This document shows positions 4,967 through 38,600 of a DNA stretch of 43,540 nt, piece by piece. Within the stretch, counting starts at the first letter, position 1, and every line of letters begins with the position of its first letter. The DNA is from Acholeplasmataceae bacterium (GTDB taxonomy: Bacteria > Bacillota_I > Bacilli_A > Acholeplasmatales > Acholeplasmataceae). Both the position numbers and the translations under genes were made by a program. The notes under the pieces were generated by a model, which worked only from the letters and a program-made list of their open reading frames with translations, was not told the origin of the DNA and searched no databases. The stretch covers positions 1 through 43,540 of the forward strand of contig JAUSOA010000098.1 in NCBI GenBank assembly GCA_030656435.1, read 5' to 3'.

Positions 4967-5040
4967 ATTACCTTCGGTATAATAACCTATCAAATGCCCC
5001 GTTTTTACACATTGTGATTTTTTTTTTCAGTTTCGCCCTA

Positions 5041-9352: not shown

Positions 9353-12300
9353 TAGATTCTTATGACTAGTTTTTTAACGATGAGTGCGATGATACCAAGT
9401 AAAGCAAGCGATGATCCTGCAGCAATTGCTACAATCACAGGTGTAGAAAGTCCTTCACTCGGAACTTCAATTAATACACACTCTCCATCAATAAACTCAT
9501 AGCCATCCTCACAATTTTCTATTGGAATTAAAATACATTCTCCATCCACCAATTCGTAACCAATTTCACAAGTGATAGGTTCAGGAACACAATTGCCATC
9601 GACAAGTATTTCACCAATTTCACAAGTGATAGGTTCTTCTACCTTTTTAACATCACTTTCCCAGGGGAATCCTGGATAAGTTGTCCAATAAATAGTATTC
9701 AGTCTATCGAGTGTTTGGGTAACCTTCGCATTCGGACTTAGCAATGTCTTATAGGAAAATAAGGAGACTCCGATCACACTTTCCTTGGTAGAAATATAGC
9801 GTATTTGTTCAATAAGCTCATTATCATCTGTCCAAGTGCCTTCAGTATATCGATAGAAGCCTTGACCAATAATTAATCCAACACCATTGGCTTGGGTTAA
9901 ATCAGCCCACCAATCCACCAAATCAGCAAATGGTGCAGCAGAATGGTCGAATTGCCAGTAAAGCTGTGGAAGGATATAATGAACCCATCCGTTTTCAACC
10001 CACTTTTTGCTATCTGCAAATTGATCCTTATAGCTTTGAAGAGCGTATGGCGAAGTATTGGATCCTTCTTCACCACCGGATAGCCAAATGCCAAATGGAC
10101 TAATACCAAATTTAACATTCTTTTCTTGAACGACATTCCATGTTTCAATCGTGTAGAATAAATCTTCCATTAATAAATCAATGTTATTTCTTCTCCAATC
10201 GGCTAATGTTTGACCAGTATCCTTGGTATTGTTGTAGGTTTGTGCATCCTGAATGTCTTCCATTCCTGAATAACTATAGAAATAGTCATCAAAATGAATG
10301 CCATCCACATCATATTTCGCCATTAATTCTTGAATTACATTTTTAATATAGGTTCTGACTTGGTTTTCACCCGGGTTAAGAATTAGTTTCCCTCCCTTGT
10401 CTTCTAAAACTAGATGAGGATTTTGTTTAGCAAAGTTATCATCGTGTAATAGTGCCAATTGTTGTGCTTTGGTTAAATCTCCGTTATTCGATACACGATA
10501 TGGATTTAACCAAGCGTGGAATTCAATTCCTCTTTTATGTGCTTCTTCAATGATAAAGCCTAAGACATCCCAACCTGGGTCGACACCTTCAATACCTGTT
10601 AAGTATCTTGAAAAAGGTGCGTAATCAGATTCATAGAATGCATCATTCATTGGTCGAACCTGGAAAAACATCGTATTGAAGTTATTGGCTTCAAGACGGT
10701 CTAACATCACGATAATTCTACCCTTATAATCTGCTTCAGATGTATGTAGAGGTATATCAATATTCGCTACAGTTGCTACCCAAACCGCTCTAACTTCTTC
10801 TGATTTTTCAGTATAAGAGGTTGGAAGCAATATAGGATTGTTCGTATTGTAATAGTTAATAATTTTACCGTTTCTAATAACGTAGAGATTATCCTCAGAA
10901 AGTGGCATATTTAAGCGAATTCTTTGGTCTAACGTTTCTGATACATTTCCTGCACGGTCTATAGCATAATATTCAACCGTATAGGTAGCATTCAATACAA
11001 ACTCTAAGACTTCGCTATAAACCAACCAAGAAGACCATACAGAACCATTATGAATTTTATACATAATCTTATCATTTGGATTGCTTGGTGTTAATGTTAC
11101 GCTAGTTTCATTTGTGTAGTACCAGCCATCAAATTCACCAACTATTGAAATCGTTGGATCGTCTGGTTCTATATTATCGATATAAACAGTTTTGGTTGTA
11201 ACAATTGATGCTCCATCGTTATTTCGATAGCTAATTATATAGGTTCCATCTGTAGTTAATGAGATGGGTTCCGTATAAACTGTCCAAGCACCATCATTAA
11301 TCTTGTAGGAATAACTTGGTGCAGTTGAGGTTAACGTGAATGTCAAATTTTTGTAATATGGATCTGTTCCACTTCCTGTTATGTTAAGAACCGGATTTGG
11401 ATAGGTTTCTGCGACCACTGAAATAGTTCTTGTCACTTCACTGGATTCAATACCTAAGGAATCAATAGTTTTCGTTCGAATAAAATAGGTTCCTGTTTCA
11501 TTCAGTACCAAAGGTTCTGAATAAGGATTCCAGGCTCCTACTGAGCCCTTATTGACTGCAATCCAAATGGTATTGGATGAACTCGTTACAGTAACTGTAG
11601 ATCCTAATACATAGCTAAGGCCAATTTGAGTACCACTGACTGTAATGATAGGCAGCACACTATTGATTCTAGTGATTTGAATATCTACTGCAGATATCAA
11701 GGATTCTTCATCTAAATTATTGATTGCTTTCATATAAAATGTTTCTAAACCTTGATGAGTGAGTACAACTGGAGCAGTATAGATTGTCCATTCACCTCCA
11801 CCAATCTTATAATATGCTTGATCTGTACTAGTCAAAGTGACGGTTACATCACTTCGATAGGCTCCATTTGAATAGGTTCCTGATAATTGGTAGGTTGGTT
11901 TTTCTACATTACTCGTCGCCCAAGTACCTAGTGGATCATTTTGCCAATAATTATTGACGACCTCTGTCATATTCGTGCCATTTAAAAAAGCAGCTGAGTA
12001 CATCACAGAGCCCTTAATCTCGGGATGTTTTTGATTATATTTAAGCTGGGTTGCAATTTCATCAGAAAGCCAACCCGCAGCATTTGCTATGGAGTGTCCA
12101 ATCAATAGATCAACATCTGTTCCTCTGACTACACTAGCCCACCAGTCGACAACATCCGCGTAAGGTGCTGTTGAATGCTTGAAATTCCAATAGATTTGCG
12201 GGTTAATGTAATGTACCCACCCCTGTTCAACCCATTTTTTACTATCTGCGTATTGACTCACATAGGATTGTGCAGTCGCACCTGTATTGGATCCGTCAGG

Positions 12301-13221
12301 CATTGTATTTTTACCTGCCCAAATACCAAAGGGTGATATACCAAAGCGTACATCCTTACTATTGGTATCGTTATGTAGGTCAACATCCTCTTTGACACCA
12401 CGGACAACATCATTGACGTTCTCTCTTCTCCAATTGGCGAGTGTTTGACCTGATAGTTTATAGGCATCATAGGTAGCTGAATCTGAACTTATTCCAGAAT
12501 ATGGATAAAAATAGTCGTCAAAATGAACGCCATCTACATCATAGAGAGTAATCAGTTCTTTTACAACATCACGAATATACTCTTTTACTACTGGTTCACC
12601 TGGATTTAGGATATAAGGAATCAATCCATTTCCATCTGGATTTCCTCCAACAACTAAATCAGGATTTAAAGATGCAAAGTTTCCTGGATGAAGTGTTGAG
12701 ATAAAGTTGGTTTTGCTTAATGTGGAATTACCGACACGGTAAGGGTTTAACCATGCATGAAATTCTACTCCTCTTTCATGTGCACGAGTAACCATATACT
12801 CCATGACATCCCAGCCTGGGTCGACACCTTCAGTGCCTGTTAACCATTTTGAGAATTCTGCATAATCTGATTCATAGAATGCATCATTTTGAGGTCTAAC
12901 CTGAAATAGGATTGCATTCATATTTTTAGCAATCACTCGATCAAGTAATTCATTATAAGCTGCCTTATATTGCGTTTCACTGGTGTGAAGCGGCATATTT
13001 AAGCTAAATACAGTTGCAACCCAAACCCCGCGGAATTCATGGGTTTGTTCTGCATATGTTGTTGGAATCATGACTGGATCTGTGGAATCATAATGGTAGA
13101 CGTTGGATCCACTTCTTGTCAGTATTTCAAGTGGTGAACTTGCATCCAACTTTTGTGCTTGAAATACTCCAAGGGTAATCACTGCAAGTAATAATATGAA
13201 TAATAGTTTTATTTTTCTCAT
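9352..13221 (-). CDS. Secreted, C-terminally anchored protein with two GHL10 (DUF187/DigH-YddW-like) domains, Ig/chitobiase-C-like linkers and three Cys mini-repeats
   Basis: Signal peptide MRKIKLLFILLLAVITLGVFQAQ; domain 1 FRGVWVATVFSLNMPLHTSE...VDGVHFDDYFYPYSGISS...WVHYINPQIYWNF; domain 2 VRAVWVATVANIDIPLHTSE...VDGIHFDDYFYSYSGMED...WVHYILPQLYWQF; C-terminal TM TPVIVAIAAGSSLALLGIIALIVKKLVIRI. Confidence 0.88.
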   Translation of the reverse strand: MRKIKLLFILLLAVITLGVFQAQKLDASSPLEILTRSGSNVYHYDSTDPVMIPTTYAEQTHEFRGVWVATVFSLNMPLHTSETQYKAAYNELLDRVIAKNMNAILFQVRPQNDAFYESDYAEFSKWLTGTEGVDPGWDVMEYMVTRAHERGVEFHAWLNPYRVGNSTLSKTNFISTLHPGNFASLNPDLVVGGNPDGNGLIPYILNPGEPVVKEYIRDVVKELITLYDVDGVHFDDYFYPYSGISSDSATYDAYKLSGQTLANWRRENVNDVVRGVKEDVDLHNDTNSKDVRFGISPFGIWAGKNTMPDGSNTGATAQSYVSQYADSKKWVEQGWVHYINPQIYWNFKHSTAPYADVVDWWASVVRGTDVDLLIGHSIANAAGWLSDEIATQLKYNQKHPEIKGSVMYSAAFLNGTNMTEVVNNYWQNDPLGTWATSNVEKPTYQLSGTYSNGAYRSDVTVTLTSTDQAYYKIGGGEWTIYTAPVVLTHQGLETFYMKAINNLDEESLISAVDIQITRINSVLPIITVSGTQIGLSYVLGSTVTVTSSSNTIWIAVNKGSVGAWNPYSEPLVLNETGTYFIRTKTIDSLGIESSEVTRTISVVAETYPNPVLNITGSGTDPYYKNLTFTLTSTAPSYSYKINDGAWTVYTEPISLTTDGTYIISYRNNDGASIVTTKTVYIDNIEPDDPTISIVGEFDGWYYTNETSVTLTPSNPNDKIMYKIHNGSVWSSWLVYSEVLEFVLNATYTVEYYAIDRAGNVSETLDQRIRLNMPLSEDNLYVIRNGKIINYYNTNNPILLPTSYTEKSEEVRAVWVATVANIDIPLHTSEADYKGRIIVMLDRLEANNFNTMFFQVRPMNDAFYESDYAPFSRYLTGIEGVDPGWDVLGFIIEEAHKRGIEFHAWLNPYRVSNNGDLTKAQQLALLHDDNFAKQNPHLVLEDKGGKLILNPGENQVRTYIKNVIQELMAKYDVDGIHFDDYFYSYSGMEDIQDAQTYNNTKDTGQTLADWRRNNIDLLMEDLFYTIETWNVVQEKNVKFGISPFGIWLSGGEEGSNTSPYALQSYKDQFADSKKWVENGWVHYILPQLYWQFDHSAAPFADLVDWWADLTQANGVGLIIGQGFYRYTEGTWTDDNELIEQIRYISTKESVIGVSLFSYKTLLSPNAKVTQTLDRLNTIYWTTYPGFPWESDVKKVEEPITCEIGEILVDGNCVPEPITCEIGYELVDGECILIPIENCEDGYEFIDGECVLIEVPSEGLSTPVIVAIAAGSSLALLGIIALIVKKLVIRI

Positions 13222-14436
13222 CTAAAGCCCTCCTGTTAATAATTTCTTGACTTCCTTCATACCCGCTTCAGACTTATCCTTATTGATAAAAGTCTTATAA
13301 GTAAAAAACACATTGCCCTTAACGACTGGGTATTGATTTGCATATTTTAATTGGTTAACGATTTCAAGTGCATTTTCGAATTCGCCATCATTTCCTAATC
13401 GGTAAGCACCATGACCGATATATAAATCAACCTTTGAGTCTTGAAGGAGCTTAACCCACCATTCCAATATATCCCCAAATGGAGCAATCGAATGACCGAA
13501 CTCCCAATAGATTTGAGGAACGATATAATCTAGGAAACCTTCTTTGACCCATAAATATGCATCCGCATATTGATTGTCATAGCTTTGACTGCATTTCGGA
13601 TCGGTATTCGATCCCTTTGGGTCACTTGCTTTATTCTTCCAAATACCAAATGGACTCACTCCGAATCTTAGGTTTGGACTGACCTTCTTTAAGGCTTCAT
13701 AAACACCCTTGATAACATCAGTTACATTTTGTCTTCTAAAATCTCCGAGGTCGTGAGCATGATTATCTCTTTGAGCGAAATCTGCTAAATCATTTCTTTC
13801 ATCACTTAATCCTGCATAGGGATAGAAATAATCATCAAAATGAATTCCATCAACATCATAATGTTCTGCTAGTTCAACCATGGAATCGATAATAAACTGT
13901 TTAACTTCTTTTTTTGCTGGATTCAAAATGATTTGACCATTCTTATCGAGTACGGTTAGCTCTAGATGTTTTTTTGCAAAGTTTAGGTCGTCGCAATCCT
14001 CTAAATATTCTTCGGGTGTGATCGATATCTTCATCGATACACGGTATGGATTGCACCATGCATGAAATTCAATATTTCTATTTCTTGCCTCTTCGATAAT
14101 CCATTTTAATACATCAAATGGAGGTTTTTTTCCTTCTTTTCCTGTTAAAAATCTAGAGTAAGGATTGAGTATCGATTCATAGAATGCATCATTAGTTGTT
14201 CGCACCTGAAAGAAAACTGCGTTGATATTATAACTTACGCAAGTATCAAGCATTTCAATGACTTTCTCTTGATAAGTGTCGATATTTTCAGTTGTAGGTA
14301 AATCAATATTTACGACATTAGAAACCCACATCGCTCTAAAGTCTTTAGAAACGTAGGTTTCAGGAATCTCAATTTGAGTATTTGTTTGATAATAACAAAT
14401 AGGCTCACTAGGATTCTTATATTTAAATAACTTCAT
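13222..14436 (-). CDS. Stand-alone GHL10 (DUF187/DigH-like) glycosidase, no signal peptide
   Basis: FRAMWVSNVVNIDLPTTENIDTYQEKVIEML...FQVRTTNDAFYES...VDGIHFDDYFYPYAGLSDE...LDYIVPQIYWEFGHS, same conserved blocks as the neighbouring two-domain protein. Confidence 0.88.
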   Translation of the reverse strand: MKLFKYKNPSEPICYYQTNTQIEIPETYVSKDFRAMWVSNVVNIDLPTTENIDTYQEKVIEMLDTCVSYNINAVFFQVRTTNDAFYESILNPYSRFLTGKEGKKPPFDVLKWIIEEARNRNIEFHAWCNPYRVSMKISITPEEYLEDCDDLNFAKKHLELTVLDKNGQIILNPAKKEVKQFIIDSMVELAEHYDVDGIHFDDYFYPYAGLSDERNDLADFAQRDNHAHDLGDFRRQNVTDVIKGVYEALKKVSPNLRFGVSPFGIWKNKASDPKGSNTDPKCSQSYDNQYADAYLWVKEGFLDYIVPQIYWEFGHSIAPFGDILEWWVKLLQDSKVDLYIGHGAYRLGNDGEFENALEIVNQLKYANQYPVVKGNVFFTYKTFINKDKSEAGMKEVKKLLTGGL

Positions 14437-15752
14437 TATTTTTTCTCCTCATAATATCCTAGATATTTCTTATGTGCAATGACAAGCTCATTAAACACCT
14501 TTTCTGCAGTTACAATCGATGTTGTTTGTGGGTGTATTTGAAGGGCGAGTAGCGCTTTATTCAAGTTTCTTTCATAAATCGCGTCAGTGAGTAATTCTTC
14601 AAATGCCTTCATGGATTGTATCAAACCTCTAATTTGAACTGGAAGTCTTCCAATATGGACAGGCACAGGACCATCTTTTGTGATTCTGCAAGTGATTTCG
14701 ATTGCACAACCATCAGGAAGATCGGTGATATGTCCATTATTAACGGTATTGACCACCTGATAATCTCTTTTATCATTATAAAGTGAGCTGATGATGCTGC
14801 AAGCAACATCACTATAATAGGCTCCACCACGACTTTCTAATTCCTTAGGCTTCTCATTTAAACTTAAATCCTTATATTTCTCAAAGAGCGTTGTTTCTAG
14901 CTTCTTAACGAGCTCAGCTCTAGTTTCTCCAATTTCACAGGCTTTAATGAATTTATCATACATTTCCTGATAGTGGTAATAATACTTATGATAAGGAGAT
15001 GGATAAACGCCAAGCTCCTTGATAAATTCATATTTCCACGCGAGTGGGTCGATATTATTCATCGTCATTTGTGAATCCTTAATCTTTTCAATAATTTCAG
15101 GAAGTCGGTCTTTATTCTTATGAAACAGACTTAAAACATAAGACATATGATTCAGTCCTGCAAAATAAGGGATTAATTCCTTTGATTTAACGTTTAAAAC
15201 ACTAGCGAAATGATTGGTCATATTAATTGGAACGTTACATACACCGATGTAACGGTCAAATTCAGCATATCTAAATACAGCTTCACTGACAATTCCAGCA
15301 GGATTGGTAAAGTTGATTAACCATGCATTTTCACAAAGCTCCTTGATGTCTTTAATAATATCAAAAATGACTGGCACAGTCCGTAATGCTTTAAAGACTC
15401 CACCTGCACCATTGGTTTCTTGACCAAGCATACCGTATTTAGCTGGAATTCTTTCATCTAAAACTCTAGCATCTAAAAGTCCAACACGGAGTTGGGTGGT
15501 CACAAAATCGGCATCTACTAAGGCTTCTCTTCGATCTAGGGTTAAATGAATGGTGATTGGAAGTTTCGCTTTTTCGACCATACGCTTCGCTAAAGCTCCA
15601 ACAATTTCAAGTTTTTCCTTACCTTCTTCGATATCGACTAACCAGATTTCAGCAATAGGTAATTCTTTATATCTTTTAATGAACCCTTCAATCAGTTCTG
15701 GTGTATAGGATGAACCTCCACCAATAGTTACTATTTTGATTCCATTTTTCAT
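14436..15752 (-). CDS. GH4 family NAD+/metal-dependent 6-phospho-glycosidase (CelF/ChbF/LicH-like)
   Basis: KIVTIGGGSSYTPELIEGFIKR, QETNGAGGVFKALRTVPV, LINFTNPAGIVSEAVFRY, GVCNVPINM. Confidence 0.9.
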   Translation of the reverse strand: MKNGIKIVTIGGGSSYTPELIEGFIKRYKELPIAEIWLVDIEEGKEKLEIVGALAKRMVEKAKLPITIHLTLDRREALVDADFVTTQLRVGLLDARVLDERIPAKYGMLGQETNGAGGVFKALRTVPVIFDIIKDIKELCENAWLINFTNPAGIVSEAVFRYAEFDRYIGVCNVPINMTNHFASVLNVKSKELIPYFAGLNHMSYVLSLFHKNKDRLPEIIEKIKDSQMTMNNIDPLAWKYEFIKELGVYPSPYHKYYYHYQEMYDKFIKACEIGETRAELVKKLETTLFEKYKDLSLNEKPKELESRGGAYYSDVACSIISSLYNDKRDYQVVNTVNNGHITDLPDGCAIEITCRITKDGPVPVHIGRLPVQIRGLIQSMKAFEELLTDAIYERNLNKALLALQIHPQTTSIVTAEKVFNELVIAHKKYLGYYEEKK

Positions 15753-16729
15753 AAATGCACACAGCTTTCATCAAGATTATTTTCTATTTTTTCATCTTGC
15801 TTAATACCCAGTTCATCTAATGCAAATAGATATGCACCAACAACTGGTTGATATTTTGGTTTTACAATATAGCTTTTAGGACATTCTTTTTTTAATGTAG
15901 CTTCAAATGATTCTAGGTAGTACTTGGCTTCACCTGAAAATACTTTTCCACCAATCACTACAGGGACGATCTCTTGATCAATACCGACCTTTTTCATTAC
16001 ACCAGCGGTTTGTTCTCCCACAAACGATGCAAGTCTTGAAAGTATTTCAATCGAAACAAGGTCACCTAATACTGCACATTTGTTGACTAAGGCAGTAATC
16101 GTTCCGTATTCCTTTTTAGTAACCCTCGTTACTGGGTAGAATAAGTCAACAACCTCACTCATTTCTTTTAGGTTAAAGATTAATGGAATTTCATTTTTCA
16201 GCATCGTGTCCATATGTGTCATTTCATCTGCACGAAATGCATAATGAAGTGCTTCTCTAGCTATATCTAAGCCACCACCATAAATACCTAAGGTAAATCC
16301 CAACGATCTTAGGATAGCTTTTTCGCCTAAGTGATTCATCGCTGCAGAATTGGTTCCTGTTCCAGATATTGCAACCGCAACATAGGGTGATTTGAGTCCA
16401 CTACGCATAACAATCCAAGCATCATTAACGACCTTAAAGGGGATTTCATGAAATATGCTTTTGCATGCTTTGTTCAGCTTAATAAAATCTGATTCAAGGT
16501 CAGCACCAGATAATCCTAAAAAGATAAAGGATATTTCATCATTTGAAATAGATAATTCGTTTTTACCTTCGTTAAATAGGTTTTCAATCACACTTTGAAA
16601 TAGATGTCCATCTGTGGATGCATGATTGCATCCACTTCCAATCTTTTCATATTTAAGATTTCCATAGTGATCAAAGATTGTAAAATGTGTTTTCGTTCCG
16701 CCGCCATCATAGGCAATAATATATTTCAT
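15749..16729 (-). CDS. BadF/BadG-type ASKHA sugar kinase; GlcNAc/MurNAc kinase-like (MurK-like)
   Basis: MKYIIAYDGGGTKTHFTIFDHYGN, FLGLSGADLE, AVAISGTGTNSAAMNHLGEKAILRSLGFTLGIYGGGLDIAREAL; 4-nt ATGA overlaps with both neighbours. Confidence 0.85.
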   Translation of the reverse strand: MKYIIAYDGGGTKTHFTIFDHYGNLKYEKIGSGCNHASTDGHLFQSVIENLFNEGKNELSISNDEISFIFLGLSGADLESDFIKLNKACKSIFHEIPFKVVNDAWIVMRSGLKSPYVAVAISGTGTNSAAMNHLGEKAILRSLGFTLGIYGGGLDIAREALHYAFRADEMTHMDTMLKNEIPLIFNLKEMSEVVDLFYPVTRVTKKEYGTITALVNKCAVLGDLVSIEILSRLASFVGEQTAGVMKKVGIDQEIVPVVIGGKVFSGEAKYYLESFEATLKKECPKSYIVKPKYQPVVGAYLFALDELGIKQDEKIENNLDESCVHL

Positions 16730-17883
16730 ATGTTTCCCTTGAAGTAATAATTCACTTGACCTAGGATTACATTCTTTTTTGCACCTGTCGCTTGTTTAAG
16801 ATTCGATGGGTTTAAATGAAGTGTTTCATTTCCTAGGATGATGAATGCTAGTGCTTCTTTAGAACTGCTATTCATCCCAAGGTCTTCTAGCTTCTTTATT
16901 TGAATTTGGGGAAGTTCTCTTGAAATGCATTCAAGTAAATAAGTATTATAGGACCCTCCACCACAAAAGATAATTTCATCTAGAACTACTTTAGGTAAAA
17001 TAAAGTTTTTATAGGAGTCTACAATCGATTGGACTGTAAACATTGTAAATGTATGAATGATATCTTCTCTTGAATACTTTTTATACTTTTGAAGTAGCTT
17101 TTCAGTGAATTGATCACCAAATGTTTCTCTTCCTGTTGATTTTGGAGGAAGTAGGGATAAATAGGGATGACTTAAGAGTTCACTCATTAATTCATTAATT
17201 AAGTGGCCACTTCTCGCTTTTTCACCATCTTTATCATATGTCTGATGATAAAGTCTTTTCATTGCGTAATCAATCATCATATTTCCAGGACCTGAATCAA
17301 ATGCAAAAACGTCGTCAGCTTGACAACCCTTTGGCAAAACAGTCATATTTGCAATCCCACCGATATTATGAATCGACCTACTTACCTCTTCACTTTGAAA
17401 CAAAATGAAATCTGCGTAGGGTACCAGTGGTGCACCTTGTCCACCAACTGCAAGATCAGCTGCTCTAAAATTAGAGACGACAGTGGTTTGACATAAACTA
17501 GAGATTACCGCTCCTTCTCCAAGCTGGAGTGAAGATCTCACCAAATCCTTATAGGGAGTCCCTATATGAAAGATAGTTTGACCATGGGAAGCGATAAAGC
17601 TAATATCATCCATTTGAATATTTTCTTCCTCACAAAGACTTTTGGCAGCGCTTGCAAAGACTTCGCCTAATTCAAAGTTCAGACTGCATAACAGCTCTGA
17701 TGAACTTTCATCGATGGAGAATCCCTTCTTGATTTTTTCAAGAAGTAGGGGTTCAAATGGATAGGTTTTGAATGCAATGGGATTAACTTTTGTTTGAGTG
17801 AATGTCCCTTCGATCTCCGCAATTAGGATATCGATGCCATCTAAGGAGGTTCCACTCATCATGCCTATAGCAAGTTTCTTCAT
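16726..17883 (-). CDS. anmK: Anhydro-N-acetylmuramic acid kinase
   Basis: MKKLAIGMMSGTSLDGIDI, SHGQTIFH, NFRAADLAVGGQGAPLVPYADF, NIGGIANMTVLP, FDSGPGNMMIDY. Confidence 0.95.
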   Translation of the reverse strand: MKKLAIGMMSGTSLDGIDILIAEIEGTFTQTKVNPIAFKTYPFEPLLLEKIKKGFSIDESSSELLCSLNFELGEVFASAAKSLCEEENIQMDDISFIASHGQTIFHIGTPYKDLVRSSLQLGEGAVISSLCQTTVVSNFRAADLAVGGQGAPLVPYADFILFQSEEVSRSIHNIGGIANMTVLPKGCQADDVFAFDSGPGNMMIDYAMKRLYHQTYDKDGEKARSGHLINELMSELLSHPYLSLLPPKSTGRETFGDQFTEKLLQKYKKYSREDIIHTFTMFTVQSIVDSYKNFILPKVVLDEIIFCGGGSYNTYLLECISRELPQIQIKKLEDLGMNSSSKEALAFIILGNETLHLNPSNLKQATGAKKNVILGQVNYYFKGNI

Positions 17884-17934: not shown

Positions 17935-17994
17935 GAAAGCTAACCTTTAGGTTGTTTTTTTCAAATTACAAAAAAATAAGGCATTTCTAGAAAA

Positions 17995-18043: not shown

Positions 18044-18898
18044 TTATCTTTTGAATTTCTTAAATGTTTTATAGGTCATTTCGAGTGTTCTGACCGAACG
18101 ATCGATATCCGTATATGCACAATGTGCAAATAAAGCATCCACCATACAGAACTGTGAAATTCTAGAAGTCATTGCTGCACTTCTAAACTCTCCCTCTAAT
18201 GATGATGTATAAATGACAACATCAGATAGCTCAGCAAGCATCGAAGCACCTAGCTTCGTTATACTAATAATCTTCGCTTTATTTTCCTTAGCAACCAAGG
18301 CTGCACTAATAATTTCCTTTGTTTTTCCTGAATTGGAAATAAAGATAATAACATCCTTTTGATTAATGAAGGATGCATCGACCAATTGCTCATGGCTTTC
18401 GCCCTGTGCAATACAAAACTTATTAATTCTTCTTAGCTTCATCTCTAGATCCTTACAAACCAAATAAGATGAACCCTTACCAAAGATTAAGATCTTTCTT
18501 GCATTCATGATGATTTCAGCAGCCTTCATAACAATTTCTTCATCATAAAGCTTTAAGGTATCCTCTAATACTCTAATGTTATTTTCAACAGCGGATAGCC
18601 CACAATGAGAATCCTTAGCTAAAATAACATCCGCATATTCCCTATTTTCAGGTATTTCTACCTTTGCATTCGCTAAAATAAAATCAATCTTGAAATCCTT
18701 AAATCCTTTATATCCTAACTTCTTACACATTCTAACCACAGATGCTGGAGACGTATATGCAGCCTCAGCTATTTTTTCAACAGAGAAATCCTTAAGAACG
18801 CCCTTGTTTTCGATTAGGTAATCTAAAACAACACGCTCGGCCATGCTTAGGTCTTCTTTGTATTTTAACATATTCAACATGACGCTAATTTCAATCAC
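18044..18898 (-). CDS. MurR/RpiR-family regulator with N-terminal HTH and C-terminal SIS domain
   Basis: SVEKIAEAAYTSPASVVRMCKKLGYKGFKDFKIDF (HTH_6) and ARKILIFGKGSSYLVCKDLEMKLRRI...DVIIFISNSGKTKEII (SIS). Apparent GTG start at 18898. Confidence 0.9.
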   Translation of the reverse strand: MIEISVMLNMLKYKEDLSMAERVVLDYLIENKGVLKDFSVEKIAEAAYTSPASVVRMCKKLGYKGFKDFKIDFILANAKVEIPENREYADVILAKDSHCGLSAVENNIRVLEDTLKLYDEEIVMKAAEIIMNARKILIFGKGSSYLVCKDLEMKLRRINKFCIAQGESHEQLVDASFINQKDVIIFISNSGKTKEIISAALVAKENKAKIISITKLGASMLAELSDVVIYTSSLEGEFRSAAMTSRISQFCMVDALFAHCAYTDIDRSVRTLEMTYKTFKKFKR

Positions 18899-18921: not shown

Positions 18922-18936
18922 TTGTAAGTGTTTTCA
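18922..18936. promoter_or_regulatory. Candidate cre-like site upstream of the RpiR regulator
   Basis: TTGTAAGTGTTTTCA matches WTGNAANCGNWNNCW at 14 of 15 positions; adjacent minus-strand -10 TATAAT at 18947-18942. Confidence 0.4.
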
Positions 18937-19049: not shown

Positions 19050-20447
19050 CTAAATGACTTTACCTGGATTTAAAATATTTTTAGGGTCAAATGTCTTTTT
19101 GATACCCTTCATAATTTCGATTTGTTTATCTCCCAAAAGCTTAACCATATATTCTCTTTTAGCAAATCCAATGCCGTGTTCTCCTGAAACAAGACCACCA
19201 TAGGTAAATGCTTTCTCATACATTAGATTAAATCCTTTAGAAACCTTTGATTTCCACATCTCATCAGATAGCTCATCCTTACAAAAATAGATATGCAAAT
19301 TACCATCACCAACATGACCAAAATAAGGAATTCTAATCTCTAATGTTTTAGAAAGTTCTCTTACATATTCCAAAAATGCTCCAATACTTGAGCGAGGTAG
19401 AACCACGTCACATTCATCAATTGCAGAAGTCGATGCCTTAATGGCTTCTAGGAATCCGCCTCTTACATTCCAAACAGCACTTCTACGTTCTTCTGTATCG
19501 ACTAAGAATACATCGATTGCGTTATATGAGTTGATGCATAAAGAAGATGCAATTTCAATATCCTCTTGAATTGCGATTTCATTATTTCCATCATAGCTAA
19601 TCAGTAAATAAGCTTCAAAATTATTATGGGGTATTTTCTTTCCCAAAAACTCTTCACTATACTGAAGGGATTGTTTTTCTAAAAATTCTACAGCAGTAGG
19701 AATCACATGATCCATAATGAGTCTTGGTGCTGCTGAGATTGCATCTTCTCTATTCTTAAATGGAACCAGTAAACTAATTGTTTTCTTAGGCTTTGGTATT
19801 AATTTTAAGGTCGCCTCTACAATGATACCAAGCGTTCCTTCACTGCCGATAATTAGGTCCTTTAAGCCATATCCAGTGGAATTTTTAACAACCTTTCCAC
19901 CAAGCTTGATCAGTTCACCATCTGGAGTAATGACTTCAAGTCCACGTACCCAGTCTCTAGTCACACCATATTTTACTGCACGCATTCCACCAGCATTCGT
20001 GGAAATATTTCCACCTATGGTCGCGGTCTTTTCACCTGGGTCTGGTGCATAAAATAGACCTTCTTTTTCTACACATTCATAAATATCTAGAAGTAATACT
20101 CCTGGTTCAACACGAAGCGTTAAATTGGTTTTATCGAGTTCAATAATTTTATTCATCTTGGATGTATCCAATAAGATTCCTCCAAATAAGGGAACACATG
20201 CACCAACTAAGCCGGTACCACTTCCTCTTACCGTGACAGGAATATTATATTCAAAGGCATATTTCATAATCATTTGGATTTGATCTTTATTTGCTACAAC
20301 AACATGTGCCTCAGGAAATGCGAAAATTGTATTAAGCTCATCATGTGAGAAATCGTGTTCGATTTCATTTAATACTGTAACATGTTCTTTTCCTACTAAA
20401 GCCTTAAGAAAGCTAAAATCTTCTTCACTCATTTTTTTATAGTTCAT
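19050..20447 (-). CDS. glcD: FAD-linked oxidase, D-lactate/glycolate dehydrogenase (GlcD/LctD-like)
   Basis: VTVRGSGTGLVGACVPLFGGILLDTSKMNKI, GEKTATIGGNISTNAGGMRAVKYGVTRDWVRGLEVI, GSEGTLGIIVEATLKL, PYFGHVGDGNLHIYF, SGEHGIGFAKREYM. Confidence 0.9.
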   Translation of the reverse strand: MNYKKMSEEDFSFLKALVGKEHVTVLNEIEHDFSHDELNTIFAFPEAHVVVANKDQIQMIMKYAFEYNIPVTVRGSGTGLVGACVPLFGGILLDTSKMNKIIELDKTNLTLRVEPGVLLLDIYECVEKEGLFYAPDPGEKTATIGGNISTNAGGMRAVKYGVTRDWVRGLEVITPDGELIKLGGKVVKNSTGYGLKDLIIGSEGTLGIIVEATLKLIPKPKKTISLLVPFKNREDAISAAPRLIMDHVIPTAVEFLEKQSLQYSEEFLGKKIPHNNFEAYLLISYDGNNEIAIQEDIEIASSLCINSYNAIDVFLVDTEERRSAVWNVRGGFLEAIKASTSAIDECDVVLPRSSIGAFLEYVRELSKTLEIRIPYFGHVGDGNLHIYFCKDELSDEMWKSKVSKGFNLMYEKAFTYGGLVSGEHGIGFAKREYMVKLLGDKQIEIMKGIKKTFDPKNILNPGKVI

Positions 20448-21643
20448 GATTTTTCCTCCATGATTGAATCGATTAAGAGATTTAATTCAGGTAACACCTG
20501 ATAAATATCTCCAACAATCGAGTAATGACTAATATCAAATAGTTTATTGTTGATATCGCTATTGACTGTAATGATTAACTCCGCTTCTTTCATGCCTTCA
20601 ATATATTGAACTGCACCACTAATTCCTAAATTGATAATCAACTTTGGTTTAACGGTTCTTCCGCTCAGTCCGATTTGTTTTCTTGCATCAAACCAACCAT
20701 TTTCAATTAATGGTCTTGTGCATCCAATTTCTGCATTCAATCTCTTTCTTAAAGGCTCAATTAATTCTAAATCCTTTTGTTTCTTAAATGCTCTACCAAC
20801 TGCGATAATGACCTCTGCATCACTTAAGTCAGAGACCTTAGGCTTATGCATGATTTCAAGTAAATGGATTGTGGTATCCTTGACGATGGCGTCTGTCTTC
20901 TCATGGTGAATGACTCCATAGGGGGTAACCTTTTTAGGAGCATTAAACATTTTATAGCGAATCGTTGCCATTTGTGGACGGTGATTCGGTGTATTGATCT
21001 TCGCCATGATGTTACCACCAAAGGCAGGTCTAATTTGAAGGAGCTCACCCTCACTAGTAATATCTAGCATCGTGCAGTCTGCAGTAAGTCCTGTTTTTAG
21101 TCTTGCAGCAACTCGAGGTGCGAAGCTTCTACCACGTGGTGTAGAACCATATAAAATGACATTATTTTGATATTTTTTGTAGAATTCTTCAAAGATATTG
21201 GTATATATTTCTACATTGAATTCCTTAAATCTAGGGTGATCATATAAATAAACTTCATCGACACCATAGGTTAAGGCTTCTTCTGCAATATGGGAAACCT
21301 GATCCCCAATCACTAAAGCAATTACTTTTTCGTTTGTTTTTTCTTTAAGTTCCTTTGCTTTACCGATCAATTCCCAGGAAACATGATGGGCTTCTTGATT
21401 ATGTATTTCTACATATACTGCAATTCCCTTATATTTAGATTTATCGATTTGAACCTTTTGAGATTCAATAAACTCACAAGCACCCTCTGGTCCTTTTTTT
21501 ACACAGATTTTGCAGATTTTGCAGGACGCGTTAATGGAAAGATACGCATCCGTATACTCAAATGCGTTGAATGGACAAATATCGATTAACTTTTTGGCGA
21601 TTTCATCATTGATTTTATCTTGATTGACTTTAATATATGACAT
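20444..21643 (-). CDS. etfA: Electron transfer flavoprotein alpha subunit with N-terminal ferredoxin-like segment (LctC-like)
   Basis: N-terminal CPFNAFEY and CKICKICVKKGPEGAC; EtfA C-terminus ADCTMLDI, AVGRAFKKQKDLELIEPLRKRLNAEIGCTRPLIENGWFDARKQIGLSGRTVKPKLIINLGISGAVQYIEGMK. Confidence 0.92.
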   Translation of the reverse strand: MSYIKVNQDKINDEIAKKLIDICPFNAFEYTDAYLSINASCKICKICVKKGPEGACEFIESQKVQIDKSKYKGIAVYVEIHNQEAHHVSWELIGKAKELKEKTNEKVIALVIGDQVSHIAEEALTYGVDEVYLYDHPRFKEFNVEIYTNIFEEFYKKYQNNVILYGSTPRGRSFAPRVAARLKTGLTADCTMLDITSEGELLQIRPAFGGNIMAKINTPNHRPQMATIRYKMFNAPKKVTPYGVIHHEKTDAIVKDTTIHLLEIMHKPKVSDLSDAEVIIAVGRAFKKQKDLELIEPLRKRLNAEIGCTRPLIENGWFDARKQIGLSGRTVKPKLIINLGISGAVQYIEGMKEAELIITVNSDINNKLFDISHYSIVGDIYQVLPELNLLIDSIMEEKS

Positions 21644-21653
21644 GATTTTTCAC

Positions 21654-22445
21654 CTATAAAAATCGACTTTCTTTTAGAATATCAAACATGTCTTTAGCAA
21701 GCTTTTCCTTCTTGCCTTCAACCATAATTGCTTCTGTTCTTTTAAGAGGTGGAAATATTTCATCCACTTGAGTTGGTGAACCACTGAGCCCGTAATTATC
21801 TGGGTTTTGATCCTTTAAATCCTTTAGGGTTACCATCTTGATTTTGTAGTCCTTAAATAAGACCTTTCTTCTGTAAGATGGTAATCTAGGAACATTTGCT
21901 CCCTTATCAATTGTTATTAAGCATGGATAAAAGACTTCAACCAATTCATCATAGGTATCGTATGCACTACGTAAGATAATAGATTTTTCCTTAACTTCAA
22001 CGATTTCTTTGACATAGGGAACATGAGGTATCGATAAAAACTCAGCCATTTCAGGACCGACTTGTGCAGTATCTCCATCTGTAGTTTGTTTGCCGCAAAT
22101 AATTAAGTCGTAGCCTCCGATATGAGTCACGAGCTGAGATAGTGTATAGGAGGTCGCAAGTACATCCGCACCTGCAAATCTTCTATCACTAATTAGAGTT
22201 GCTTCATCAGCACCCATATGAAGAGCTTCACTTAAAGCACTATTTGCTGAAGGTGGTCCCATCGTGATGGAATAGACCACTGAATCTTTTCTCATGGCTT
22301 TGATTTGAAACGCAGCTTCTAGAGCATAAAGATCATAGGGATTCATTTTGACATTATTTCCATCTCGAATCAAAACGCCTGTCTTTGGATCGACTTGAAC
22401 GTTTGATGATGCTGGTACTTGCTTGATACATGTGATAATCTTCAT
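21654..22445 (-). CDS. etfB: Electron transfer flavoprotein beta subunit (LctB-like)
   Basis: MKIITCIKQVPASSNVQVDPKTGVLIRDGNNVKMNPYDLYALEAAFQIK, MGADEATLISDRRFAGADVLATSYTLS, CGKQTTDGDTAQVGPEMAEFLSIPHV. The ATG at 22445 is more likely than the ORF-track start at 22481. Confidence 0.92.
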   Translation of the reverse strand: MKIITCIKQVPASSNVQVDPKTGVLIRDGNNVKMNPYDLYALEAAFQIKAMRKDSVVYSITMGPPSANSALSEALHMGADEATLISDRRFAGADVLATSYTLSQLVTHIGGYDLIICGKQTTDGDTAQVGPEMAEFLSIPHVPYVKEIVEVKEKSIILRSAYDTYDELVEVFYPCLITIDKGANVPRLPSYRRKVLFKDYKIKMVTLKDLKDQNPDNYGLSGSPTQVDEIFPPLKRTEAIMVEGKKEKLAKDMFDILKESRFL

Positions 22446-22494
22446 TTTCTCTACCTCAACAATAATATACGATTCTAACATATCATAGATATTA

Positions 22495-22533: not shown

Positions 22534-22567
22534 TCATCATTAGATAATTTTTTTCAGTAATTGACCC

Positions 22568-24130
22568 TTATGGAGTCACATTTTGACTCGCAAAGCTTCT
22601 TAAGAGTTCAAGGAACTTATTGATATCTTGAGGGTATACATTATAAATAATGTTTGCAGTATAATCAGAGGATTTATAGAGTGCGCCACCCTTTGCACGA
22701 ATAGATATTTCATGTGAACCAATAGGGAGTGCTAAGGATAACTGATTATCATTAACAATCGTTTCTTTTCCATCCACTAAAACACTGTAAGATATAGCAC
22801 CTTCAATACCATTAAAATGTAGGATACCACTACCATCAACAAATACATTACCTGGCATTGATAACTGACTTCTTGTATCTGGCCAAGCAGGGATTGGAGC
22901 AGGAGTTTCTTTATGTTCACCCTTGACGAAGAATACTCCGTTTGCTACACTTCGAATACGTAAATCAGAGGGCGTATTTAAGATGACATATTGTTCTGTA
23001 TCTAAATCCTTTAGGGCCATTGTAGAGGATCCGCCACCATCTAGGTTATACGCTCTATCCGCACCAAAGTGAGCCATAATTTCACCAAGTTCTCTAAGCT
23101 TGACACCATCCATGCCTTCAGGCTTATTTCTACCATCCACAACTACAAAGAATACTGTACCATCGGTTTTAATACCAATCGCAGTTCTTGGAGCTGGAAA
23201 ATCCCAGCTTGCTCCTGCATTTAAGGAAAGGTTTGCTTGTCCGTTGATGACTAATGCTTGCGCATCAGAACCAATCGCAAATCTTACATCATCCCAAATG
23301 CCGCCTAAACCTAATTGAACTACAGCATAATCATTTCCTGAAATCAATTGATCGTTATTGAATTCATGACCAACAATAATGAAATGATTGTTTTGAATGG
23401 TCACTGCATTCGAGGTTGTTTCAACTAAAGATCCCTTACCGAAATAACCTGATTTATTTTTGTTAATTTTGGTTTCAATGCCACTCATAATAACCTTATT
23501 GAATGATTCAGGAATAGCAACTAAGGAATCATCAAAGAATACTGAAACTTCGCTATTACTTTGAGGTACTTGATTGATTCTATTGATAGGAACTCTTTTT
23601 TTAAGCTGTCCTTCATCATTATAGACAAGTAACTCGTATCCATCAAACGTAGGAATACCATGAACTACATCACCGTTATCCTTAAAGCCTACAGCATTTC
23701 TATTTCCACCATAGCCTCTTTGAATGACTTCAAAGTCTCTAACATGTAGTGATAATGGTTGACCAGTGTCGTTAATGTCATAAAAGTCGCCATTCACACC
23801 TGCGATGACTCTAAAGTTTTCATATCTTTGGTGAACCTTATCGATAATAATTGGTAATCCTGACATTCCCCAGCCATGCGCTTGGAAATTATCAGCTACT
23901 ACTAGATTGATATCACTATAAAGCTTGGGGTTCGCACCTATATAATTAATAACTTGATTGGTTACAAGTCCGTCCATATCAATTGAACCAACAATCTTTG
24001 TATGTCTAACACCTTCGACAAAGACAGTTTGTTTTGTAGTTTCATAAAGTCTAAATGCTGCACTGACTTCTTGAAACTGTACAAATGATAGTGTAAATAA
24101 TAATAAGAGTAAAGCAATTATTTTTTTCAT
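22568..24130 (-). CDS. Secreted phosphodiester glycosidase family protein (NAGPA/DUF2233)
   Basis: Signal peptide MKKIIALLLLLFTLSFVQFQEVSA; RTAIGIKTDGTVFFVVVDGRNKPEGMDGVKLRELGEIMAHFGADRAYNLDGGGSSTMAL signature. Confidence 0.9.
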   Translation of the reverse strand: MKKIIALLLLLFTLSFVQFQEVSAAFRLYETTKQTVFVEGVRHTKIVGSIDMDGLVTNQVINYIGANPKLYSDINLVVADNFQAHGWGMSGLPIIIDKVHQRYENFRVIAGVNGDFYDINDTGQPLSLHVRDFEVIQRGYGGNRNAVGFKDNGDVVHGIPTFDGYELLVYNDEGQLKKRVPINRINQVPQSNSEVSVFFDDSLVAIPESFNKVIMSGIETKINKNKSGYFGKGSLVETTSNAVTIQNNHFIIVGHEFNNDQLISGNDYAVVQLGLGGIWDDVRFAIGSDAQALVINGQANLSLNAGASWDFPAPRTAIGIKTDGTVFFVVVDGRNKPEGMDGVKLRELGEIMAHFGADRAYNLDGGGSSTMALKDLDTEQYVILNTPSDLRIRSVANGVFFVKGEHKETPAPIPAWPDTRSQLSMPGNVFVDGSGILHFNGIEGAISYSVLVDGKETIVNDNQLSLALPIGSHEISIRAKGGALYKSSDYTANIIYNVYPQDINKFLELLRSFASQNVTP

Positions 24131-24142
24131 TGTTTTTTCTCC

Positions 24143-24796
24143 CTACACGGTTGGTAAAACAATATTTGTTGTTCCAATATTGTTAAACTCAATAATGAAT
24201 CGATAGTTAATTTCTCCAGCCAGTAAAAAGAAAATCATTTCAGAAATATGATTATCGACAATCGTCATTTCAAAGCCTGATAGTTCACTATCTGGAAATG
24301 AACTCTCAAAGAAGATTTGAGCATCACCTTGATTTTGTAGATTCATTAGGTATTTTCCGTTATTATAAGTAAACCATTCGATTTCAAATGCTTTAAAGAA
24401 ATCATATTCACTATTTTGGGATTGAGTGAGTGTTTGCTTCGCATAAATACTTCCCTGTGGTACGTAGTGATATAGTGTTCCACTTGAAAGCTCATAATAA
24501 TCCTTTTGTCCATCAAACTCAAATGAAGACTTTTCATCATCAAACTGAATCACGACATCATAGAGCTCAAATCCATTTTGAATGGTGATGTCTAATTGAT
24601 AATTTTTCATCGTTTCGATGTTTTTGATTGCATTCATTAAAGCAAGTTCTTCAGGTAGGTAAATAATCTGACAAACTCCATCGACATTCTCTTCATTGGT
24701 TCCACAAACAATTTCTATAGGAACTGTTTCTTCACCCTTACATGCCTGTATGAAAAATAAGCCAAAAAGCATGATTACATAAAATATTTTTCTCAT
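24143..24796 (-). CDS. Small lipoprotein of unknown function carrying the C-x10-C mini-motif
   Basis: Lipobox MRKIFYVIMLFGLFFIQACKGEE; CGTNEENVDGVC. Confidence 0.75.
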   Translation of the reverse strand: MRKIFYVIMLFGLFFIQACKGEETVPIEIVCGTNEENVDGVCQIIYLPEELALMNAIKNIETMKNYQLDITIQNGFELYDVVIQFDDEKSSFEFDGQKDYYELSSGTLYHYVPQGSIYAKQTLTQSQNSEYDFFKAFEIEWFTYNNGKYLMNLQNQGDAQIFFESSFPDSELSGFEMTIVDNHISEMIFFLLAGEINYRFIIEFNNIGTTNIVLPTV

Positions 24797-24963: not shown

Positions 24964-25812
24964 CTAAAGCATTTTTTGAATACGGTTTGATACGTCTTGT
25001 TTGAATCTTTCAATATACTCTAAAACATATGTTTTGATATCTAAATTGATATCTGTTACTAGTGGAGTTAAATCCATAGCAAATATTAAAGCAGTAGCTT
25101 TGTCGACTGCATGAGATGTTGAATAGGTTGCATGTGCGACACGTCTACCTGTGGTTGCAAGATCGTAGCGTTTACCACCAATGATTTGTGAATCGAAGAC
25201 TTCTACCAATGCTTGAGCAAGATTTGGATGTCCACTGACATCAAAAATCACCTTTTCATCATCAAGCATCCAATCAAGGTCTCTCCACACTTCACATCCG
25301 TAGACCTTCTTAGGTCTTAGATTTGCTGGAAGCTTACGGATTGCTTTAATGACTTTAGTAGTTACACCAATATGTGTATCATGCTTATCTGCTAAATTGT
25401 GTGTATATAGTATTTCTGGATTCGCAAGCTTGATTAACTCAGCTAATTCATCAATTATTTCCGTATTTTTAGGATCCTTTGTTTCAGCACTTGGATAATC
25501 GAGTAATGCGAGTGCTCCGAATTCTCCGATATATGCAGCCTTCTTTTGTTCAAGTCTTCTGACATTGATCATTTCTTGGTCAGTATAGTTCTTATAAAGA
25601 GAATCTCTTGCACTTCCTGAGCCACTCGTAACAACAACTCCAAAAAACGATTGATCTTCCTTCCCAAAGCATTGAAGTATACCATCATAGGCCATAATTT
25701 CAATATCATCTTGATGTGCTGCAATAGACATATGGGTAGTTTTCTTGATTGCAGTCATTACTTCTGTCTGATCAGGAATAAAGAATTCTGCTGTTTTTTT
25801 GTTTAGTTTCAT
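24964..25812 (-). CDS. PIG-L/LmbE family deacetylase (GlcNAc/chitobiose-type candidate)
   Basis: SIAAHQDDIEIMAYDGI (AHxDD zinc motif), VVTSGSGSARDSLY, LYTHNLADKHDTHIGVTTKVIKAI. Confidence 0.87.
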   Translation of the reverse strand: MKLNKKTAEFFIPDQTEVMTAIKKTTHMSIAAHQDDIEIMAYDGILQCFGKEDQSFFGVVVTSGSGSARDSLYKNYTDQEMINVRRLEQKKAAYIGEFGALALLDYPSAETKDPKNTEIIDELAELIKLANPEILYTHNLADKHDTHIGVTTKVIKAIRKLPANLRPKKVYGCEVWRDLDWMLDDEKVIFDVSGHPNLAQALVEVFDSQIIGGKRYDLATTGRRVAHATYSTSHAVDKATALIFAMDLTPLVTDINLDIKTYVLEYIERFKQDVSNRIQKML

Positions 25813-27365: not shown

Positions 27366-28103
27366 TTATATTTTTTTCTGTAGTGAAAGCATACTTGCAG
27401 CTTCTTGATCAAGAAAGAATGTAATATCTCTATGTTCTTGTAAAATCGATGCTGGACAATCGATATGAACAGCACCTTCTAGCATATCACGAACTGCTAA
27501 AGCTTTATTTAACCCTGTTGCTATCAAAACTATTTTTTTTGCATTCATGATGTTTTGAATTCCCATGGTGATGGCGTGTGTTGGCACATCGTCAATTGAG
27601 TCGAAAAATCTAGCATTATCGTGTCTAGTTTTCGCATCCAATTGAATTCGGTGTGTCTGACTTAGAAAACTTGTTCCTGGTTCATTGAAACCGATATGCC
27701 CATTTCTTCCGAGACCAAGTAATTGAATATCTAATTCATATTGATTTAATAAATCATTGTATATTTTGGCATAGTCAGCAGTGCAATCTATTTTCATACT
27801 CGGTAGATAGGTACGCTCTTTATTAATATCTATATAGTGAAAAAAATGCTTATTCATAAAGTATGCATAGCTTTGATGGTTATCTGATGATATCCCTTCA
27901 TACTCATCTAAGTTGAACGTAGTAACATCCTTATATGTTGTCTGATTGCTCTTAAAATCATGAACAAGCGCTTTATATACACCTATCATAGATGAACCTG
28001 TAGCAAGTCCTAAAACTGCTTTAGGTTGATCGTTAACGATTTTAATAATTTCCTTTGCAGCCAAATCGTAAAGCCTATCCTTCTGGTCAATAATGATCTT
28101 CAT
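27366..28103 (-). CDS. nagB: Glucosamine-6-phosphate deaminase
   Basis: AVLGLATGSSMIGVYKALV, VTTFNLDEYEGIS, HQSYAYFMNKHFF, LDIQLLGLGRNGHIGFNEPGTSFLSQTH. Confidence 0.96.
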   Translation of the reverse strand: MKIIIDQKDRLYDLAAKEIIKIVNDQPKAVLGLATGSSMIGVYKALVHDFKSNQTTYKDVTTFNLDEYEGISSDNHQSYAYFMNKHFFHYIDINKERTYLPSMKIDCTADYAKIYNDLLNQYELDIQLLGLGRNGHIGFNEPGTSFLSQTHRIQLDAKTRHDNARFFDSIDDVPTHAITMGIQNIMNAKKIVLIATGLNKALAVRDMLEGAVHIDCPASILQEHRDITFFLDQEAASMLSLQKKI

Positions 28104-28154: not shown

Positions 28155-29468
28155 TTAATTATTGGGCATGCGATGACTTAAATTTAAATATAAGTCATCA
28201 AAATAGATGCCGTTACCTGCGGTTCCGATAAGTGAAACTTCAAGTCTTCTTGTTCCAACAGGAAGATCAATTGTCATTTCCTTCATGTAATACTCACCTA
28301 AAACAAAGTTAGGATCATTTTTATCAAATGTTAGTGAGTAGCTTTCAATTCTTGTAGTCTCGAGTGGTCTCGCTTCGATTAATACCATTCCTGCATCATC
28401 AAGATGTTCGAGTTTGACTTTCACCCACAATGTAACCTCAAAGGTTTCATCCATTCCTGTAACAAACTGGTATACTATATCATCCTTAGGGACAAATAAT
28501 GCTTTCGAATTATTGATTCCTTGATTAGAGACAATTTCAACCAAGCTTGTTGCTGTTTTTCGCCATGCATCAGGTGAACCTTCAAAGCCTGGGTTTGATA
28601 TTAAATTATTCAATGGCATTTCTATTGGTGCTGTTGGATAATGACTAGGAAAATTACTTCTTCCACCTGCAGTTTCAATATATGGATTATCGAGGTACGG
28701 TGTATAACGAATCCAATCAACAAACATGTAATCAGTTTCAAAGTCGGGAGTGCCTGCCCATCCATCTGGAAACCAGTGTCCAATCCATAGTCTTCCAGCA
28801 TAATTCGGAATATTATAATCTGACGTGTGAAGTAAAATATCATCAACATAATAATCAATTCTCGCTGGGTTTGTATGCCATTCAAATTTATATGTGTGCC
28901 ACTCTCCATCATTATGAACAATATCGGTGACATGCTGTCTATGGTCTGTATCTGTTAAAGTTACCCAGTTTGTTGTCCAAATCGATCTAAAGCTATTGTT
29001 AACATTCAATTCAATATCAATTTCTTGATTGAGTGATAATTCATGATTATAATAAAACGTCCAAAATGCACTTGTAGCACCAAAGCGAGGTAGAGCCTTC
29101 ATTCTAACCTCAAAACGACCCGGTCCAAACGCTTCATTAGATATTAGAGCTGCGCCAGTCCTTGTGCCTGAATTACTGTTATAGCCTTTATGAGGCCCAG
29201 CATAATAATCTCCATTGGCTTGCAGTACAACAACACCATCATCGGTATAATGAACATTTTGTGCGATTACACCGTTATTGGTTGTTCCCCATTTGGTATT
29301 TGCAATCTCCCAATTATTAATATCAATTCCATTTTCAAAATTATCAAAAAATATATTATCTAAATCTAGGTTATCATCTGGGTTAAATTCATCTGTCTCC
29401 TCACCCTTAGTACATGAAGCAAAAAAGATTGAACCTACCAGTATCATAACGAATACAATTTTTTTCAT
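28155..29468 (-). CDS. GH16 family endo-glycanase lipoprotein with C-terminal CBM-like domain
   Basis: Lipobox GSIFFASCTKG; GH16 catalytic EIDIEL in LSLNQEIDIELNVNNSFRS; C-terminal NLISNPGFEGSPDAWRKT module. ATG at 29468 has GGAGGTAGTA upstream. Confidence 0.88.
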   Translation of the reverse strand: MKKIVFVMILVGSIFFASCTKGEETDEFNPDDNLDLDNIFFDNFENGIDINNWEIANTKWGTTNNGVIAQNVHYTDDGVVVLQANGDYYAGPHKGYNSNSGTRTGAALISNEAFGPGRFEVRMKALPRFGATSAFWTFYYNHELSLNQEIDIELNVNNSFRSIWTTNWVTLTDTDHRQHVTDIVHNDGEWHTYKFEWHTNPARIDYYVDDILLHTSDYNIPNYAGRLWIGHWFPDGWAGTPDFETDYMFVDWIRYTPYLDNPYIETAGGRSNFPSHYPTAPIEMPLNNLISNPGFEGSPDAWRKTATSLVEIVSNQGINNSKALFVPKDDIVYQFVTGMDETFEVTLWVKVKLEHLDDAGMVLIEARPLETTRIESYSLTFDKNDPNFVLGEYYMKEMTIDLPVGTRRLEVSLIGTAGNGIYFDDLYLNLSHRMPNN

Positions 29469-29480
29469 TACTACCTCCAT

Positions 29481-30680: not shown

Positions 30681-30691
30681 AAAATCACTCC

Positions 30692-32557: not shown

Positions 32558-32582
32558 AATTGTACCTGCTTATCTTGTATTT

Positions 32583-35384: not shown

Positions 35385-35395
35385 TTCTCTCTCCC

Positions 35396-37599: not shown

Positions 37600-37606
37600 G
37601 TCACCT

Positions 37607-38575: not shown

Positions 38576-38600
38576 ATTCGTTACCTTCTTCTTTTTATTT

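Follow-up and report, generated by a model that had tools for sequence, protein, structure and literature searches.

Why should a bacterium of an order described as peptidoglycan-deficient (PMC10868615) carry genes for a D-lactate dehydrogenase/EtfAB complex beside genes for the catabolism of N-acetylmuramic acid (MurNAc)? The question is raised by contig JAUSOA010000098.1 (C78) of an Acholeplasmataceae bacterium, the whole of which (43,540 nt) we analyzed and call the window; its genome (G000) is 2.0 Mb in 304 contigs and about 94% complete. A sequence-only reading had proposed that the window genes etfB-etfA-glcD, here lctBCD, serve to oxidize the lactyl group of MurNAc to pyruvate by flavin-based electron confurcation/bifurcation. 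That proposal is supported by the finding of murQ, by co-occurrence and linkage, by a distinct clade and by a shared upstream element, while the activity, direction, substrate and stereochemistry of the complex are predictions from sequence. We think it quite likely that lctBCD encodes a cytoplasmic Ldh-EtfAB complex of the Acetobacterium woodii type, dedicated to the D-lactate that is freed intracellularly when MurQ splits MurNAc-6-phosphate (MurNAc-6-P).

The subunits of LctBCD and their conserved residues

The three genes lie on the minus strand between 22445 and 19050 and, by their open reading frame coordinates, are packed as a single transcription unit, with a 10-bp gap between lctB (etfB) and lctC (etfA) and a 4-bp overlap between lctC and lctD (glcD). 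lctB (21654–22445) encodes a predicted bifurcating-type EtfB of 263 amino acids (aa); its longest open reading frame begins at 22481, and we placed the start at 22445 because of homology and the MKIITC start. lctC (20444–21643) encodes a 399-aa EtfA with an N-terminal ferredoxin-like domain for one [4Fe-4S] cluster, and lctD (19050–20447) a predicted FAD-dependent D-lactate dehydrogenase subunit of 465 aa. When each protein was compared with the PDB by phmmer, the A. woodii Ldh-EtfAB complex (7qh2) was the top match by a wide margin for all three subunits: 620 bits versus 235 for the next solved relative for LctD (7qh2_C, E = 1.3e-185), 425 versus 246 for LctC (7qh2_A, E = 1.7e-126) and 300 versus 178 for LctB (7qh2_B, E = 1e-88). 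These matches rule out a chance resemblance and, together with the open reading frames, confirm the three genes where the sequence-only reading had placed them. The names offered by NCBIfam, acryloyl-CoA reductase for EtfAB and GlcD for LctD, were dropped in favor of 7qh2, as all fell below cut-off.

The likeness to A. woodii LctBCD that had been proposed from the sequence was borne out down to single residues. LctD shares 57% identity with its A. woodii counterpart, and the residue map showed all 12 of the substrate and metal residues tested in the active site to be identical (Glu37, Glu139, Leu80, Arg328, Leu332, Glu344, Asp346, His377, His384, Tyr386, Glu422 and His423). LctC retains four [4Fe-4S] cysteines (C23, C41, C44 and C47) together with R205, at the bifurcating flavin, and D189; the four cysteines of the ferredoxin domain and Arg205 are invariant in 30 of 30 members of the clade described below. 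LctB, judged by the motifs in its translation and by conservation, retains the beta-FAD motif DGDTAQVGP, the NAD motif RRFAG (RxFxG) and the SPT anchor. In A. woodii Ldh-EtfAB, loss of the beta-FAD, NAD or SPT motif abolishes or nearly abolishes coupling, and the ferredoxin domain is essential for it (PMC9232219); because that domain is intact in LctC, the same requirement would apply to the window complex. Since the beta-FAD, NAD and ferredoxin-cysteine residues are kept, lctBCD is a complete LctB-LctC-LctD set that we predict to be of the confurcating type, not a canonical electron-transferring flavoprotein (ETF).

These residues bear on two other explanations. EtfAB might be a canonical carrier that hands LctD electrons on to some other acceptor or dehydrogenase, as in Ldh-ETF-Bcd of Fusobacterium nucleatum, where a D-lactate dehydrogenase is likewise clustered with an ETF (PMC12630350). 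There, however, the canonical ETF holds AMP and couples to butyryl-CoA dehydrogenase (PMC12630350), which is absent from G000: no acyl-CoA dehydrogenase (PF00441) was matched in this genome. LctD without LctBC in three genomes speaks for such a carrier, but the confurcating marks kept in LctB and LctC leave this explanation very improbable. It is just as hard to believe that the substrate is another 2-hydroxyacid, such as glycolate or 2-hydroxyglutarate, or the depsipeptide D-lactate of vancomycin-resistant walls. GlcD-type FAD enzymes do vary in substrate, and the nearest NCBIfam model, below its cut-off, is glycolate oxidase GlcD, but the pocket residues are identical to those of A. woodii LctD, far ahead of the next solved relative in score.

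MurQ, co-occurrence and gene neighborhoods

The sequence-only reading had rightly seen no MurQ in the window and had suggested a genome search, which was positive: murQ lies at 629–1534 of contig C5 of the same genome (396 bits, cut-off 302). It closes a compact cluster, namZ-nagZ-kinase-murQ, in which NagZ matched PRK05337 (216.7 bits, cut-off 207), the kinase is a second one of the BadF type, and the NamZ-like protein, which had no NCBIfam match, was named by reading its sequence. Kinases that would make MurNAc-6-P are also present, namely AnmK, over its cut-off, and predicted BadF-type kinases both in the window and beside murQ.

We followed the distribution of the long form of LctC and of MurQ in 101 related genomes. 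LctC was present in 29 and MurQ in 37 (two of its copies being split or frameshifted): 29 genomes had both, none had LctC alone, 8 had MurQ alone and 64 had neither. The Fisher value of 2e-18, uncorrected for kinship, is descriptive, given that the genomes share ancestry and the genes are in part linked. Both states were also found within single genera (both genes versus neither: g1, 12/8; g4, 1/1; g8, 1/2; g15, 4/1; g21, 4/3). Because LctC occurs only with MurQ, while eight MurQ genomes have no LctBC, LctBCD appears to be an accessory to MurQ, as expected of a lactyl-processing step. LctD alone is kept at the lctBCD position in three of these eight. Such orphan LctD genes, with LctB and LctC gone, sit beside rpiR/anmK genes at L095 (2830–6724, G029), L104 (G042) and L108 (G080).

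A tree of 100 LctBCD sets placed all MurNAc-linked lctBCD loci in a single, fully supported clade of 30, made up of Acholeplasmatales sequences, genome G063 and the Bacilli metagenome-assembled genome L124. MurNAc genes lie within 10 kb of lctBCD in 24 of the 25 clade loci with enough flanking DNA, a count that includes G003, added from coordinates; murQ or anmK was near lctBCD at none of the 75 loci outside the clade. Among 86 neighboring genes of those outside loci were 14 FCD/GntR regulators, 12 lactate permeases and 10 lactate racemases. Within the clade, the order is nagZ-badF-anmK-murQ-lctB-lctC-lctD-gh4-badF in G063, with 14 bp from murQ to lctB, anmK-murQ-hydrolase-lctBCD in L124 and namZ-nagZ-badF-murQ-two genes-lctBCD in G026. 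In the close relative G003, about 36 kb of a single contig separates the murQ cluster from lctC, with the anmK operon in the interval, and the same island was found in G074, G052 and G030. That the same partners recur in varied arrangements argues against mere hitchhiking.

Could LctBCD support growth on lactate taken up from outside, as it does in A. woodii and gut clostridia, its closeness to MurNAc genes being incidental? The same enzyme family serves lactate utilization elsewhere, and the lct clusters of gut lactate utilizers likewise combine an NAD-independent D-lactate dehydrogenase (D-iLDH) with EtfAB; they also carry, however, a lactate permease, a racemase, a LutR-type regulator and often an acyl-CoA dehydrogenase (PMC8914356), none of which is at the window locus. 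A lactate permease (PF02652) was found in none of the 101 related genomes or in the lctBCD cluster, and neither a strong racemase nor an FCD/GntR or LutR-type regulator was among the window neighbors of lctBCD. Against these absences, the perfect dependence on murQ across genera and the conserved operon with rpiR-anmK or murQ, we regard growth on external lactate as decidedly improbable. The view that the lactate is made inside the cell from MurNAc-6-P is supported by co-occurrence, gene order, the clade's link to MurNAc and the missing lactate permease.

Two further candidates were set aside. LarA was rejected as a partner, as elsewhere only weak homologs were seen, both with and without LctC. 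A D-2-hydroxyacid dehydrogenase on contig C198 was unsupported as a competing D-lactate dehydrogenase, all models for that enzyme falling far below cut-off.

A shared upstream element and the surrounding genes

It had been asked from the sequence whether glcD-etfAB share the RpiR regulon. Pattern and matrix scans revealed an element, TGAAAAAAATTATCTAA, about 100 bp upstream of lctB (22540–22556, minus strand) and the same element, TGAAAAAAACAACCTAA, upstream of anmK (17947–17963, minus strand). The pattern TGAAAAAAANWAYCTAA, derived from those sites, occurs twice in the window (at 22540 by lctB and at 17947 by anmK) against 0.03 expected; the plain TGAA-N9-CTAA pattern gave 7 matches versus 3.4 expected, which alone is not significant. 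Since this first test was post hoc, we then let each set of sites predict the other, with the window excluded from both matrices. The matrix made from anmK sites in ten further genomes put the window lctB site in third place among about 87,000 positions; the one made from lctB sites in eight further genomes put the window anmK site in second place. A weaker third copy, TGAAAAAAAAAATCACA (5013–5029, minus strand), upstream of an operon with an 841-aa gene and a binding protein, was the second-best window position under the matrix from anmK sites. The element is conserved across species at lctB and anmK, on both sides of rpiR. It fits common control of lctB and anmK, with the RpiR protein, whose gene separates these operons, as the evident binding candidate.

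Comparison of upstream sequences showed a further motif upstream of rpiR, kept in relatives: TGAAAACACTTACA (18923–18936, minus strand), which we take to resemble cre. This sequence and cre-like sequences upstream of anmK in G067 and G074 suggest CcpA catabolite repression of the island.

The neighbors reported earlier (anmK, a BadF kinase, GHL10 genes and an RpiR regulator) proved real by NCBIfam and Pfam matches. Past lctD in the direction of transcription, all on the minus strand, come an RpiR/MurR-family regulator (18044–18898; HTH_6, PF01418, and SIS, PF01380; also synteny), which sits between lctBCD and anmK; anmK itself, for the 1,6-anhydro-MurNAc kinase that makes MurNAc-6-P (16726–17883; NF007142, 540 bits, cut-off 435; PF03702); a predicted BadF/MurK-like amino-sugar kinase (15749–16729; PF01869); and, in the anmK operon, a glycoside hydrolase family 4 protein (14436–15752; PF02056, PF11975). 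A gene for this NAD-dependent type of glycosidase also adjoins lctD in G063, and a phospho-muropeptide substrate is conceivable. Then follow a GHL10 protein (13222–14436; PF02638), a double GHL10 protein of 1289 aa (9352–13221; PF02638), a beta-lactamase-fold esterase/peptidase of the PBP4B/AmlB kind (8294–9352; PF00144; PRK03642 below its cut-off) and a large surface protein with an N-acetylmuramoyl-L-alanine amidase domain (Amidase_2) and Big_2 repeats (5041–8322; PF01510, PF02368).

On the other side, just upstream of lctB (22568–24796), are genes for a phosphodiester-glycosidase-like protein (NAGPA) and for a 217-aa protein that matched nothing in Pfam or NCBIfam; both genes accompany lctB in most relatives. 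A PIG-L/BshB-type deacetylase gene (24964–25812) beside amino-sugar genes could stand in for NagA, for which no search was made. nagB, for the glucosamine-6-phosphate deaminase that would act downstream of MurQ and deacetylation, lies at 27366–28103 on the minus strand (TIGR00502, 246.7 bits, cut-off 236.9). A 933-aa protein without a Pfam match (32583–35384) is flanked by GH16 and GH20 genes, which belong to an apparently separate amino-sugar/glucan cluster (28155–40046).

A proposed route for the lactyl group

MraY was absent from G000 and from every searched genome of its family, whereas some of the order's other families have it. Because it is absent from genome and family, the MurNAc must come from other bacteria. 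A stable-isotope study found free-living Acholeplasma to be the main assimilators of dead Escherichia coli biomass (PMC4628116). G000 also has pyruvate:ferredoxin oxidoreductase (PFOR), RnfC of the Rnf complex and an L-lactate dehydrogenase. In many genomes the rnfC match has one in-frame stop codon, nearly always TAG (G075, G079, G081, G083, G085, G089, G092, G093 and G097 of genus g23, and G006, G014 and G062), which could reflect recoding, a split gene or frame loss.

In the route that we propose, an extracellular amidase and muramidases would release wall sugars of other bacteria for import, with AnmK and BadF/MurK kinases then adding the phosphate. MurQ would then yield GlcNAc-6-phosphate (GlcNAc-6-P) and D-lactate, a hydride from D-lactate would pass to the FAD of LctD to give pyruvate, and EtfAB would combine the LctD electrons with others from ferredoxin reduced by PFOR and deliver both to NAD+. 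The overall reaction, D-lactate + 2 NAD+ + reduced ferredoxin to pyruvate + 2 NADH, is about +6 kJ/mol (PMC5861303). PFOR acting on pyruvate may restore the ferredoxin electrons, and NADH could leave via L-lactate dehydrogenase on sugar-derived pyruvate or via Rnf.

With so small an energy change, the main rival is the same complex running in the reverse, bifurcating direction during amino-sugar fermentation. Pyruvate and NADH would give D-lactate and reduced ferredoxin, an electron sink feeding Rnf or hydrogenase, and the D-lactate from both MurQ and LctBCD would be excreted. The A. woodii enzyme is reversible, pyruvate reduction is slightly downhill, and Rnf is present. A sink for pyruvate, however, would pay off whatever the sugar and would not have to follow murQ, whereas LctC is never found without that gene, and an L-lactate dehydrogenase is already available for pyruvate reduction. 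We therefore consider the reverse direction unlikely.

Several points weigh against a complex dedicated to oxidizing MurQ-derived D-lactate. The pathway works without LctBC, since eight MurQ genomes have none; the co-occurrence is partly co-inheritance, since the genes are linked within one island; and LctBCD of G064, the sole exception among the 25 loci, stands apart from MurNAc genes. No copy of the shared element turned up at the murQ operon, an unrecognized carrier could bring lactate into the cell, and the complex could run in reverse, the reaction being near equilibrium.

The enzyme itself is a member of a known family. With A. woodii LctBCD (7qh2; PMC9232219) it shares the three subunits, the order lctB-lctC-lctD, the single [4Fe-4S] ferredoxin domain, the beta-FAD, NAD and SPT motifs and the catalytic residues, but the window set lacks the permease (lctE) and racemase (lctF), lies in a MurNAc island with rpiR-anmK and belongs to its own clade. 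Operons of the Bacillus/Clostridium kind, namZ-nagZ-murK-murQ-murR, have their enzymes on contig C5 and in the window. To our knowledge, MurNAc operons of that kind do not include lctBCD; in G000, in contrast, the lactyl part would have an enzyme of its own.

Use of the MurNAc lactyl group has been proposed for mycobacteria (PMC6572805). A close physiological parallel is the muropeptide-fed anaerobe Fidelibacter multiformis IA91, which also frees D-lactate in converting MurNAc-6-P to GlcNAc-6-P, oxidizes it to pyruvate by a D-lactate dehydrogenase and is unable to make its own wall precursors; it belongs, however, to another phylum, uses wall fragments also to rebuild its own wall, and has no Etf partner named in the text consulted (PMC11652737). 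We found no report in the open-access papers searched of an Etf-coupled lactate dehydrogenase assigned to MurNAc lactate, or of such an island in wall-less bacteria, and a dedicated Ldh-EtfAB operon for MurNAc-derived D-lactate in wall-less bacteria appears to be unreported.

An enzyme for the fate of the MurNAc lactyl part has seldom been assigned in fermenting bacteria. Here, operon, clade and distribution tie a known energy-coupling complex to it, in bacteria unable to make peptidoglycan. It is likely, in our judgment, that a distinct Ldh-EtfAB clade, spanning walled Bacilli and wall-less Acholeplasmatales, is specialized for MurQ-released D-lactate, and that wall-less bacteria feeding on the peptidoglycan of others gain pyruvate and NADH from the lactyl ether by flavin-based confurcation. 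If so, peptidoglycan catabolism would gain its first link to an electron-confurcating enzyme. The finding would carry Ldh-EtfAB beyond lactate fermentation into necromass and wall recycling, and it offers a testable explanation for how free-living Acholeplasma-like bacteria may live on dead bacterial biomass.

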